Position numbers and translations under genes: made by a program | Shown: one piece after another, positions 33,845 to 51,579 of the stretch | Numbering within the stretch: the first letter of the stretch is position 1 | Layout of the letters: every line of letters begins with the position of its first letter | Notes under the pieces: model-generated | Databases searched by the model: none | What the model saw: the letters and a program-made list of their open reading frames with translations, nothing else | What the model was told of the DNA's origin: nothing | Origin: Thermus caldilimi | Lineage (GTDB): Bacteria > Deinococcota > Deinococci > Deinococcales > Thermaceae | NCBI RefSeq assembly: GCF_004684245.1 | Contig: NZ_CP038452.1 | Location: 124,001-188,000 of the forward strand | Direction of reading: 5' to 3' | Length of the DNA stretch: 64,000 nucleotides

Positions 33845-33850
33845 GTGAGC

Positions 33851-34315
33851 ATGCCTCCTGAACTCTACGTGGTCCTGGTGGCCGCCCTGCCGGTGGTGGA
33901 GCTGAGGGGAGCCATTCCCCTGGGGGTGGCCCTGGGGCTTTCCCCAGGAGAGGCTTTCCTGCTGGCCCTCTTGGGCAACCTGCTGGTGGCCCCGGTGGCC
34001 CTCTTCCTTTTGCCTTGGGCGGTGGCGCTTTTGATCCGGGTGCCCTTCCTGGCCAAACTCTGGGCGGCCCTCGAGGCCCGGGTGCGCCTTAAGGGGGAAG
34101 AGCAGGTGCAGCGCCTGGGGGCCCTGGGCCTTTTCCTCTTCGTGGCCGTGCCCTTGCCGGGCACCGGGGCCTGGAGCGGGGCGGTGCTGGCGGTGGTCTT
34201 GGGTCTAAAAAGGCGCTACGCCCTCCTGGCCATCTCCCTGGGGGTGCTGGCTGCCGGGCTTATCGTTTTCCTCCTTACGGGTGGGGCGGTGGCCGGGCTA
34301 AACTACCTGCGATGA
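33851..34315 (+). CDS. Small multidrug export-family (COG2426) membrane protein
   Basis: 154 residues, about four transmembrane helices. VAALPVVELRGAIPLGVALG near the start is the signature of PF06695 proteins, with PLPGTGAWSGAVLAVVLGLKRR near residue 100. The family name implies drug export but evidence is thin; homology to DedA-like membrane proteins is possible. ATG 33851 chosen; GTG 33845 also possible, neither with a Shine-Dalgarno. The stop overlaps the next ATG by 4 nt, so this gene is coupled to the PlsY-AAR fusion. Confidence 0.78.
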   Translation: MPPELYVVLVAALPVVELRGAIPLGVALGLSPGEAFLLALLGNLLVAPVALFLLPWAVALLIRVPFLAKLWAALEARVRLKGEEQVQRLGALGLFLFVAVPLPGTGAWSGAVLAVVLGLKRRYALLAISLGVLAAGLIVFLLTGGAVAGLNYLR

Positions 34316-35973
34316 TGTTCGTCCTTTTGCCCCTTTCCTATGCCCTGGGCGCCTTGCCCTTGGGGTACTGGCTGGCCAGGCGGCGGGGGGTGGACTTGCG
34401 CACGGCAAGCCCCTACGCCCTGGGCTTGGAAACCGCCCTGAAGCGGCTGGGCTTGGGACTCACCCTCTTGACCTTTCTCCTGGACTTCCTCAAGGGGTAC
34501 CTGCCCCTGGCCTTGGGCCGGGCCTTGGGCCTTGGTTTTCCGGAGCTTTTGGCCCTGGGGGTGGCGGTTTACCTGGGCCACCTTTATCCCCTCTTCTTCC
34601 GCGATCCCTGGCCCCTCCGGGCTAAGGGGGCGGGGGTGCTCCTCGGGATCCTGGCGGGTTTACCTTTGGCTCCGGCCCTAGGGATGGTGCCCGTGGCCCT
34701 GGCCCTCGCCCTCTACGCCCTCACGGGGTACGCCTCCTTGGGGGCCCTGGGGCTTCCCCTGGGCCTCTTTGGGGTCGCCCTCTTCGGCGGGTTTGGACTT
34801 CAGGAGAAGCTTCTTTCCGGCCTCCTCTTCCTCCTCGCCCTTTGGCGCTACAAGGAGAACCTGGGCCGTATCCTGGAAGGCACCGAGCCCAGGCTCGGTA
34901 ACCCCATGCCCTTGCCCTCGGAAAGGCAGGTGGTCTGCGCCTTCCTCATCCATCCCCTTACGGTGGAGGATTTCTGGCAAAGCCCCCGCTTCCGCTGGGC
35001 CCGTCCTCTGGTGCGCCTGGGGCTTTTGCGGCAGGCCTGGATGGAACGTTTGGCGGAGCTTTTCCGCCCCATGAAGGTGGGGGAGGTGAGGGGAGTGAGG
35101 ACGGCGGATGGCCGGGAGGTTCTGTGCCACCTCATCTCCGCTCCCCTTCTGCCCCACCAGATCAAGGCTAAGCCGGAGCTGGCGGTAAGGCGGGCCATCC
35201 AAGGGGCCAGGCTCGCCAAGGAGCTTGGGGCCACGGTGGTGGGCCTGGGAGCCTTCTGGAGCGTGGTGGGGGAGAAGGGCAAAAGGGTACAGGAGGCGGT
35301 GCCGGGTATAGAGGTGACGAACGGGGGGGCCTACACCGCGGGCACCGTCAAAGCCGCCATCCCCGGTATCCTGGCCCACTTTGCCCAAGGCGGCAAGGAA
35401 CTGGGAAACACCACGGCGGCGGTGGTGGGGGCGAACGGGGTGGTGGCCTTCGGCATCGCCCGACAGATCGCCCCTCTGGTGGGCAGGCTCATCCTGGTGG
35501 GCCGGGACCGGGAGCGCCTGGAGAAGTCAGCGGAAAGCCTTCGGAAAAACCTGGAGCGAAAGGGGAAAGCGCCTGAGATCCAGGTGACCACCGAGGTGAC
35601 CGCCATTCGGGAGGCGGATTTGGTCTTCACCGCCACCAGCGATCCGAACCCGGTGATCTACCCTGAACACGTGAAGCCAGGGGCCTGGATCTATGACGAG
35701 GGCGTGCCCCCCGACGTGCATCCTTCGGTTAAAAAGGTACCTGGGGTCAGGGTCATCCCCGGGGGTGTGGTGCGGCTTCCCGGGAGGGCCAAGGCTACCC
35801 TAGACCTTCACTTCGGTTCCCCCGACCAGGTGCCCGCCTGCTTGGCCGAGACCATGATTCTGGCGGCGGAGGAGGCCTTTGATCGCAAGAGCCTGGGGGG
35901 CGAGGTGAAGGCGGAGAACATCCAGTTCTTCGTGGAGCGGGCCGAGGCCTTGGGATTTAAGGTGGTGGAGTGA
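34312..35973 (+). CDS. Fusion: PlsY-like membrane domain + acyl-ACP-reductase-like (AAR) domain
   Basis: 553 residues. Residues 1-200 are a membrane domain like PlsY acyltransferase: YALGALPLGYWLARRRGVDL matches motif 1 and YLGHLYPLFF the later GHN-type motif, but the GSGNIGATN and GGKGVAT motifs are degraded (ASPYALGLETA, LRAKGAGVL). Residues ~205-553 resemble cyanobacterial long-chain acyl-ACP reductase: start FLIHPLT, HQIKAKPELAVRRAIQGA, LGAFWSVV, NAD(P)H site VVGANGVVAFGIA (~371), and PACLAETMIL with Cys510 at the AAR catalytic cysteine. Predicted to reduce acyl-ACP/CoA to aldehyde at the membrane. Between a membrane protein and mqnB, overlapping both. Function is inference. Confidence 0.8.
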   Translation: MMFVLLPLSYALGALPLGYWLARRRGVDLRTASPYALGLETALKRLGLGLTLLTFLLDFLKGYLPLALGRALGLGFPELLALGVAVYLGHLYPLFFRDPWPLRAKGAGVLLGILAGLPLAPALGMVPVALALALYALTGYASLGALGLPLGLFGVALFGGFGLQEKLLSGLLFLLALWRYKENLGRILEGTEPRLGNPMPLPSERQVVCAFLIHPLTVEDFWQSPRFRWARPLVRLGLLRQAWMERLAELFRPMKVGEVRGVRTADGREVLCHLISAPLLPHQIKAKPELAVRRAIQGARLAKELGATVVGLGAFWSVVGEKGKRVQEAVPGIEVTNGGAYTAGTVKAAIPGILAHFAQGGKELGNTTAAVVGANGVVAFGIARQIAPLVGRLILVGRDRERLEKSAESLRKNLERKGKAPEIQVTTEVTAIREADLVFTATSDPNPVIYPEHVKPGAWIYDEGVPPDVHPSVKKVPGVRVIPGGVVRLPGRAKATLDLHFGSPDQVPACLAETMILAAEEAFDRKSLGGEVKAENIQFFVERAEALGFKVVE

Positions 35974-36626
35974 TGTGGCTCCTCCTTTCCCCCACGCCCC
36001 TCGAGGCCCCCTTCCTCCAGGGGGAGCCCTTTACCTTCCTTGAAAGGAAGGGGCTTAGGGGAGAGGGGTTTGTCTGGCTGGAAACCGGTATCGGCAAGGT
36101 GAACGCGGCCCTCACCCTGGCGGCCTGGGCCAGCCAAAACCCGGTGGAGAAAGCCTTGCTTTTTGGCATCGCCGGGGCTTACCCGGGCTCGGGTCTGGCC
36201 CTAGGGGAGGCCGTCTTGGTGGGGGAGGAGGTGGAGGCGGACCTGGGGCTTCGCGGGGGGCTTGAGCCCCTGGGGTTCCCCGCTCTGGTCCTCCAGGGAA
36301 AGACCTTCTACAACCGCTTTCCCCTTGATCCGGGCCTCACGGGGGAGATGGCCCAGGCCCTGGGCTTTAAGGTGGCGGTGGGCCTCACCCGGGATCTGGT
36401 CACGGAAAGCCCGGAGGAGGCGGAGGCCCTGGCCTCCCGTTGGGGGGCCCAGGTGGAGAGCATGGAGGGGGCGGCCTTCGCCCGGGCCTGCCTGGCCCTG
36501 GGGGTGCGGGGGGCGGAGCTCAGGGCCATTTCCAACCCCGCCGGGGCGCGGGACAAGGGGGCCTGGCGGGTGCGAGAGGCGGTGGAGGCCTTGGAGGAGG
36601 CGGTAAGGCGAATCCTAAAAACATAG
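35973..36626 (+). CDS. mqnB: Futalosine hydrolase (menaquinone biosynthesis)
   Basis: 217 residues, PNP/MTAN nucleosidase fold. LETGIGKVNAALTLA near residue 35, GIAGAYPGSGLALGEAVLV, and the purine-site motif QVESMEGAAFARAC near residue 165 are diagnostic. It removes the base from futalosine in the futalosine menaquinone pathway that Thermus uses. ATG 35973 overlaps the fusion gene stop; GTG 35970 is an alternative. Its stop is the first base of the terminator stem. Confidence 0.87.
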   Translation: MWLLLSPTPLEAPFLQGEPFTFLERKGLRGEGFVWLETGIGKVNAALTLAAWASQNPVEKALLFGIAGAYPGSGLALGEAVLVGEEVEADLGLRGGLEPLGFPALVLQGKTFYNRFPLDPGLTGEMAQALGFKVAVGLTRDLVTESPEEAEALASRWGAQVESMEGAAFARACLALGVRGAELRAISNPAGARDKGAWRVREAVEALEEAVRRILKT

Positions 36627-50301: not shown

Positions 50302-50903
50302 ATGGGGTCGGTGCTTTTGGCTTTGCTGGTGGCCTACCTCTTCGGCTCCATACCCGCCGGGGTTCTGGTGGCCAGAACCTACGGGGTGGACATCCGCAAG
50401 GTGGGTTCGGGCAACATCGGGGCCACCAATGTCCTCAGGGCCCTGGGGCCTGGGCCCGCCTTGGTGGTGGCCTTCTTTGACGTCTTTAAGGGTGGGATTG
50501 CCGTCTTGATCGCGCGGGCGGTGGGAATAGAGGGGCCCCTGCTGGGCGGGGTGGCGTTGGCGGCGGTGCTGGGCCACAACTACTCCCTGTTTTTGGGGTT
50601 CAAGGGAGGGAAGGGGGTGGCCACCAGCTTCGGCACCCTCCTCTTTCTGGACCCCATCCTGGCCCTGTGGACCTTTCCCATAGGGGTATCCGTGATGCTC
50701 CTCACCCGGTACGTGTCTGCGGGGAGCCTGACCGGGGGGTGGCGGCCACGGTTTTGGCCCTGGCCCTTTCCCGTCCCCTTTGGGAGGTGGTCACCGTGGG
50801 CCTCATGGCCCTTCTCATCTTCTGGACCCACCGGGAAAACTTAAAGCTCCTCCAGGCGGGGACGGAAAGGCGCCTGGGGGAAAAGGAGGGAGGCCGTGCT
50901 TGA
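50302..50903 (+). CDS. plsY: Glycerol-3-phosphate acyltransferase PlsY, split by a one-base frameshift
   Basis: Transfers acyl groups from acyl-phosphate to glycerol-3-phosphate, the first step of phospholipid synthesis. All three PlsY motifs are intact: [34 protein letters not shown] and [13 protein letters not shown]. The frame breaks at a G6 run (50734-50739); one more G gives [16 protein letters not shown] and about 200 residues, the usual length. TAAAAT (50289-50294) overlaps the upstream stop and ends 7 nt before the ATG, leaderless. Contrast the degraded PlsY-like domain at 34312. Confidence 0.92.
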
Positions 50904-51579
50904 CCTCCTGGTCCTTGCCCCTCATCCCGATGACGGGGAGCTGGGATGCGGGGGAACCCTGGCCCGGGCCAAGGCCGAGGGGCTCAGCACGGGGATTTTG
51001 GACCTCACCCGGGGCGAGATGGGCTCCAAGGGTACGCCGGAGGAGAGGGCCAAGGAGGTGGAGGAGGCAAGCCGTATCCTGGGTCTGGACTATAGGGGCA
51101 ACCTGGGCCTGCCGGATGGGGGCCTTGGGGATGTCCTGGAGCAACGCCTTAAGCTTGCCCAGGCCTTGAGGCAGCTTAGGCCCCGCATCGTCCTCGCTCC
51201 CCTCGAGGCCGACCGCCACCCCGACCACACCGCAGCAAGCCGCCTGGCGGTGGCGGCGGTGCATCTGGCAGGCCTCAGGAAAGCCCCCCTCGAGGGGGAG
51301 CCCCACCGGGTGGAGCGGCTTTTCTTCTACCCTGGAAACCATCCCTTTACCCCGAGCTTCCTGGTGAAGATCTCCGCCTTCATAGACCAGTGGGAGCAGG
51401 CAGTGCTGGCCTACAGGAGCCAGTTTTCCGGGGAGGGGGTGAGCGAGACCGTAGGGCCCAAGGGGGTGGAGGCCAGGAAGGCCATGCGCCGCCACTTCGG
51501 CAACTACCTGGGGGTGGACTACGCCGAGCCCTTCGTGAGCCCCTTGCCCGTCCTCTACACCCCCTGGAGCCGGGCTTAA
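50896..51579 (+). CDS. bshB1: Bacillithiol biosynthesis deacetylase BshB1-like
   Basis: 227 residues, PIG-L/LmbE fold. Zinc motif LAPHPDDGELGCGG at residue ~7 (HPDD), and the second-site DRHPDHTAAS near residue 108. FFYPGNHPFTPSFLVKIS matches the BshB1 C-terminal region. It deacetylates GlcNAc-malate in bacillithiol synthesis. Overlaps plsY by 8 nt and udg by 4 nt. Confidence 0.88.
   Translation: MLDLLVLAPHPDDGELGCGGTLARAKAEGLSTGILDLTRGEMGSKGTPEERAKEVEEASRILGLDYRGNLGLPDGGLGDVLEQRLKLAQALRQLRPRIVLAPLEADRHPDHTAASRLAVAAVHLAGLRKAPLEGEPHRVERLFFYPGNHPFTPSFLVKISAFIDQWEQAVLAYRSQFSGEGVSETVGPKGVEARKAMRRHFGNYLGVDYAEPFVSPLPVLYTPWSRA

Follow-up and report, generated by a model that had tools for sequence, protein, structure and literature searches.

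In the window, the 64,000-nucleotide stretch of Thermus caldilimi DNA analysed here, we found a gene (34312..35973, + strand) encoding a true two-domain protein in which a PlsY fold is joined to the fold of the cyanobacterial acyl-ACP reductase (AAR). We give about even odds to this fusion acting as an NAD(P)H-dependent fatty-acyl reductase, anchored in the membrane, that supplies the aldehyde for the alkylamine of the glyceroyl-alkylamine phosphoglycolipid. Its component enzymes are of known kinds; the architecture is new, and the joining of a phospholipid-synthesis domain to an acyl reductase is unusual. A literature search found no paper on a PlsY-reductase fusion or on genes for the alkylamine.

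Gene and protein model

The open reading frame and its translation ran without interruption from an ATG at 34312 to a stop codon at 35971-35973 (553 aa) and overlapped each of its two neighbours by 4 nt. The upstream gene (33845..34315, + strand) encodes a small multi-drug-export-like membrane protein (PF06695), and the downstream gene (35970..36626, + strand) a futalosine hydrolase of the menaquinone pathway (TIGR03664, 188 bits, above the cut-off). The three overlapping genes probably form one transcript. To our knowledge neither neighbour is functionally linked to the fusion.

Curated models for both domains matched all 63 homologues of the fusion. An AlphaFold2 model, for which the 63 homologues used all came from the window and the fetched loci, reached a pLDDT of 92.6 and a pTM of 0.89, and was compared with the PDB by Foldseek.

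The reductase domain

The C-terminal AAR-like thioester reductase domain (residues 205-553; 34924..35970, + strand) was recognised by the PigE and AAR models, by profile matches to the PDB and by Foldseek. The best curated match was to the NCBIfam PigE reductase region (residues 258-550, 109 bits). The NCBIfam model for AAR, TIGR04058, matched residues 261-549 with 49.7 bits, far under its cut-off of 449.7 for long-chain acyl-ACP reductases proper. A profile made from the reductase domains of six homologues found AAR crystal structures in the PDB with an E-value of 9e-19, PigE with 3e-15 and glutamyl-tRNA reductase (GluTR) with only 6e-4. AAR was also the top match of the structural model (E 1.7e-18, TM-score normalised to the target (TMt) 0.76, 373 alignment columns).

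A preliminary description of this DNA had already proposed an AAR-like C-terminal domain with Cys510 as the catalytic residue, and the alignments bear this out. Cys510 (codon 35839..35841, + strand) was aligned to the AAR structures 6jzq and 6jzz, and we equate it with AAR Cys294 because the serine substituted in 6jzz, the C294S mutant, stands opposite to it; the cysteine was kept in 49 of 49 aligned homologues. The dinucleotide-binding loop G373-A-N-G376-V-V-A-F-G381 (35428..35454, + strand) aligned with the AAR loop GATGDIG, and its glycines G373, G376 and G381 did not vary among 63 homologues. Three features of the AAR/acyl-thioester reductase superfamily were present, namely the AAR fold over the whole domain, the equivalent of Cys294 and the glycine-rich NAD(P)-binding loop. 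By homology, formation of a fatty aldehyde by this domain is well supported. Compared with cyanobacterial AAR (TIGR04058, PDB 6JZQ/6JZU), with which it shares the fold, the fusion is only about 23% identical, carries an added membrane domain and lacks a partner aldehyde-deformylating oxygenase (ADO). The absence of a nearby ADO had been remarked on before and extends further, as ADO (TIGR04059) was detected in 0 of 111 Deinococcota genomes, and the AAR/ADO alkane pathway was rejected on this ground.

The preliminary description had named a structural match to shikimate dehydrogenase- or GluTR-type enzymes, with the cysteine outside the active site, as the outcome that would speak against an AAR-like domain. 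Such enzymes appeared at rank 39 and lower in the Foldseek results, far behind AAR and never as the best whole-domain match, and the Shikimate_DH and GluTR models gave weak matches limited to the nucleotide-binding part. Identity with either enzyme was therefore rejected. These weak matches are also what would favour a different redox function of a GluTR- or shikimate-dehydrogenase-like kind, with no fatty-acyl substrate. We regard this as highly improbable given the end-to-end match to AAR with its catalytic cysteine, the structural ranking and the joining of the reductase to the membrane domain of a lipid enzyme.

The PlsY-like membrane domain

Residues 1-197 (34312..34902, + strand) form an N-terminal membrane domain with the PlsY fold. 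Both the fold and the membership in the Pfam family were evident, since PF02660 matched residues 8-187 with 90 bits (E 2e-25, cut-off 24) and PlsY structures matched this half of the model with a TMt of 0.83, the best of them being the acyl-phosphate-bound entry 5xj7. The proposed descent of the domain from PlsY was supported.

The accompanying claim that the main PlsY motifs had been lost was only partly right. Motif 1 (GSGNxGATN) is gone, but the histidine of the acyl-phosphate pocket (H90, equivalent to aaPlsY His92) is found in 116 of 117 fusions, and position Lys104 was K or R in 115 of 117 (residue roles according to PMC5700162). Asp58, Lys61 and Gly106 were conserved along with His90. 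The position of Thr41, like His92 a side chain of the acyl-phosphate pocket, was occupied by Glu in 104/117 fusions, and Ser35 was seldom kept; among the fusions of Deinococcota, Ser35, Thr41 and His177 were mostly replaced. The window protein itself has P, K, K, N, A and Y at Ser35, Arg45, Lys104, Asn180, Ser142 and His177, respectively, and so lacks the full set of glycerol-3-phosphate clamp and acceptor residues. Relative to the acyl-phosphate:glycerol-3-phosphate acyltransferase PlsY (PDB 5XJ5-5XJ9), the fusion shares the membrane fold and the pocket residues His92 and Lys/Arg104, whereas motif 1 and Thr41 have changed and a soluble reductase has been added at the C-terminus.

Judged by these residues, the acyl-phosphate pocket has retained its phosphate side, whereas the glycerol-3-phosphate side is mostly gone, a combination which fits repurposing better than decay. 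This pattern suggests that the PlsY domain may still bind an acyl donor, and the docking of acyl donors to the reductase, as envisaged in the preliminary description, is a plausible candidate role.

Two fusions from outside the phylum, L120 and L123, retained all nine PlsY positions tested (S35, N38, T41, R45, H92, K104, S142, H177, N180), and their PF02660 scores climbed to 147-151 bits. With their intact pocket they look like intermediates in the repurposing. They also speak for the idea that acyl transfer, to a different acceptor, is still the activity of the PlsY domain, with the AAR-like domain being secondary or regulatory. We judge this improbable, as Ser35, Thr41 and His177 are mostly replaced in Deinococcota and conservation is higher in the reductase domain than in the PlsY-like half of the fusion.

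Further plsY genes were seen in the same genome. A plsY at 50302-50950 (+ strand) had been described as complete, but in assembly GCF_004684245.1 its frame shifts after about codon 145, and the conserved C-terminal segment with ...THREN... lies in another frame. In the relatives G061, G048 and G067 the plsY match spans residues 5-197 in a single open frame, as it does in related Thermus genomes; the frameshift could reflect an error in sequencing or a genuine lesion. A third PlsY-like gene outside the window (L003, G000:C1:302337-302729, about 181 aa) has the motif 1 sequence GSGNPGALN and a GGKGLAT loop.

Distribution and phylogeny

With the window protein as query, the reductase domain was covered by a match in 107 of the 111 Deinococcota genomes sampled (none of them named Deinococcus), mostly at full length. 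The four genomes without such a match all belonged to family f5, three of them at 67-77% completeness and one (G100) at 96%. A signal of the AAR model was also found in Deinobacterium chartae (Deinococcaceae) and in Thermus composti; as Methanocaldococcus jannaschii gave one too, this is indirect evidence.

Scanning 84,980 species genomes yielded 81 relatives. Among the best 80 of these 81, the fusion was carried by Thermus, Meiothermus, Calidithermus, Trueperaceae, Deinococcales MAGs and Armatimonadota, as well as by a few MAGs labelled Bacillota or Actinomycetota, and unfused reductases came mainly from Chloroflexota. Within the phylum labelled Armatimonadota at least 10 of 43 genomes had the fusion, and most of the rest carried an unfused reductase. 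No match spanning both domains was found in 400 Chloroflexota genomes, many of which had unfused or differently fused reductases. The unfused proteins of Chloroflexota and Armatimonadota are about 31-40% identical to the reductase domain of the fusion and keep the catalytic cysteine; they differ in having no PlsY domain and in their position in the tree.

In the tree of reductase domains all fusions fell into a single clade (100/100), with the unfused proteins outside of it. Deinococcota were monophyletic inside this clade (100/100), and L120 and L123 were their closest relatives (96/93). AAR and PigE sat on long branches, and their placement is not reliable. One genome labelled Armatimonadota encodes, besides an unfused reductase, a fusion that is 62% identical to the one from Thermus (L146/L168, G120:C36:9079-10707), and transfer from Deinococcota or contamination is possible in this case.

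Two other arrangements were observed in Chloroflexota. Many of these genomes have a different fusion, in which a domain of about 300 aa with no Pfam match precedes the same type of reductase (L163:4182-6227 and L164:3847-5904, both - strand). In others, mostly Anaerolineales (L133, L134, L138, L142 and L144), the unfused reductase lies within a conserved row of genes for a DUF4388-like protein, a small GTPase, an alpha/beta hydrolase, a hexapeptide-repeat protein, the reductase, a response regulator and a sensor kinase, named by eye except for the hexapeptide match.

Neither a lipid gene nor an aminotransferase lay beside the reductase gene in Thermus, Trueperaceae, Armatimonadota or Chloroflexota, and operon context was dropped as a functional clue. 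The Trueperaceae loci differ from Thermus in gene order: in L034, L035, L036, L037 and L038 prmA and a gene for an rsmE-like RNA methyltransferase come after the fusion, which is divergent from dnaB (family matches for L034, ORF layout for the other four).

Proposed role in alkylamine synthesis

In Thermus and Meiothermus the major phospholipid is a diacylglycerophospho-GlcNAc-N-glyceroyl alkylamine, which is related to a lipid of Deinococcus radiodurans (PMC3035268, PMC3398001), and the N-glyceroyl-alkylamine phosphoglycolipid has been termed an unambiguous chemical marker for this lineage (PMC3035268). A lipid of equal mobility was described for Oceanithermus (PMC3111992). Synthesis of the alkylamine has been drawn only as a probable pathway in a 2022 paper (PMC9636437). 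The presence of the fusion in nearly all Deinococcota genomes sampled parallels the occurrence of this marker lipid, and an acyl reductase that is found throughout the phylum with no ADO would be a natural supplier of the aldehyde for it.

In the sequence of steps that we propose, the PlsY-fold domain in the cytoplasmic membrane would hold the acyl donor, which could be an acyl-phosphate bound in the kept phosphate pocket or an acyl-ACP held by its chain. The acyl group would pass to Cys510 in the AAR-like domain as a thioester and then be reduced by hydride, giving a long-chain aldehyde at the membrane. A PLP-dependent aminotransferase would turn this aldehyde into a long-chain alkylamine, which an amide bond joins to glyceric acid in the main phosphoglycolipid of Thermus, Meiothermus and Deinococcus. 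The two folds, the conserved catalytic cysteine and dinucleotide loop, the occurrence in nearly the whole phylum and the lack of ADO are observations; the aldehyde product, the donor, the aminotransferase partner and the destination of the alkylamine are inferred. A narrower proposal is that the fusion is a membrane-embedded fatty acyl-phosphate reductase, whose PlsY pocket no longer serves acyl transfer to glycerol-3-phosphate and instead presents acyl-phosphate, the product of PlsX, to the reductase cysteine, with the aldehyde again destined for the alkylamine; this we put forward tentatively. If true, the syntheses of phospholipid and alkylamine would compete for one pool of acyl-phosphate.

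A different use of the aldehyde had been suggested in the preliminary description, which linked the protein to diol lipids. A fatty aldehyde or 2-hydroxy-aldehyde could undergo further reduction, yielding the long-chain 1,2-diols or the fatty alcohols found in Thermus glycolipids; the reductase chemistry would be the same, and diol-linked glycolipids do occur in Thermus (Wait et al. 1997, as cited in PMC3398001). In Meiothermus, however, diols are reported to be minor (PMC3035268). The fusion occurs across the entire phylum, Trueperaceae and Deinococcales MAGs among them, and is missing from the 400 Chloroflexota genomes. Chloroflexota also include producers of diol lipids. The minor role of diols in Meiothermus and the lack of the fusion in Chloroflexota make this use of the aldehyde less likely; the suggested link was not supported by our data and we consider it unlikely.

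The aldehyde might also serve an undescribed product, such as another aldehyde-derived lipid or a signal, with the alkylamine coming from elsewhere. In favour of this, the fusion also occurs in Armatimonadota and other MAGs, for which no alkylamine lipids have been reported, and Chloroflexota have many unfused reductases of the same superfamily with unrelated gene surroundings. The literature found names no such product for Thermus, however, and conservation throughout the phylum fits the known marker lipid, and an undescribed product therefore seems to us rather unlikely.

We prefer the alkylamine as the destination because the characterised relatives PigE and TamH give their aldehyde to a transaminase. 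In these proteins the reductase passes the aldehyde to a class III aminotransferase, yielding an amine (PMC8341465, PMC9594044); in vitro the reductase step of PigE was seen with cell lysate and not with purified PigE. Their reductase domain resembles that of the fusion in the cysteine, the dinucleotide loop and the chemistry from thioester to aldehyde (PMC8341465, PMC9594044). They differ in that the reductase is fused to the aminotransferase, whereas the Thermus protein has the PlsY-like domain instead and any aminotransferase would be a separate gene. Against an alkylamine product stand the lack of an adjoining lipid or aminotransferase gene in every family examined and the distribution of the candidate partner described below. 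Trueperaceae and Armatimonadota also carry the fusion, and we found no evidence either way on alkylamine lipids in them.

Five class III aminotransferases in the Thermus genome scored above the Pfam cut-off. By NCBIfam they comprised LysJ, HemL, two others and one whose best matches were putrescine aminotransferase and PigE. This last, PatA/PigE-type enzyme (L053, G000:C1:294711-295952, between glmM and an RNase R-like gene) was the best match to all three independent aminotransferases that we found fused to a reductase, in Lutispora (L143), Haematobacter (L059) and Thioclava (L060, near an ACP gene), by 85-90 bits above the next. Orthologues were present in most genomes of Thermaceae and Marinithermaceae, and homologues of 48-53% identity in three fusion-bearing genomes outside the phylum. 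No close orthologue was found in f2, f3 or f5, although these families have the fusion, and no linked lipid genes were found around the gene in Thermus or in three other fusion-bearing genomes. The enzyme is the best candidate for the amine-forming partner in Thermaceae and Marinithermaceae.

With the fusion, the question of which genes make the long-chain amine of the phosphoglycolipid of Thermus, Meiothermus and Deinococcus becomes testable with a single gene, and its distribution predicts which uncultured bacteria may have similar lipids. The protein of Lutispora saccharofermentans (L143:4615-7221), an aminotransferase-reductase fusion of 868 aa with the domain order of TamH, is likely a fatty-amine-forming enzyme.
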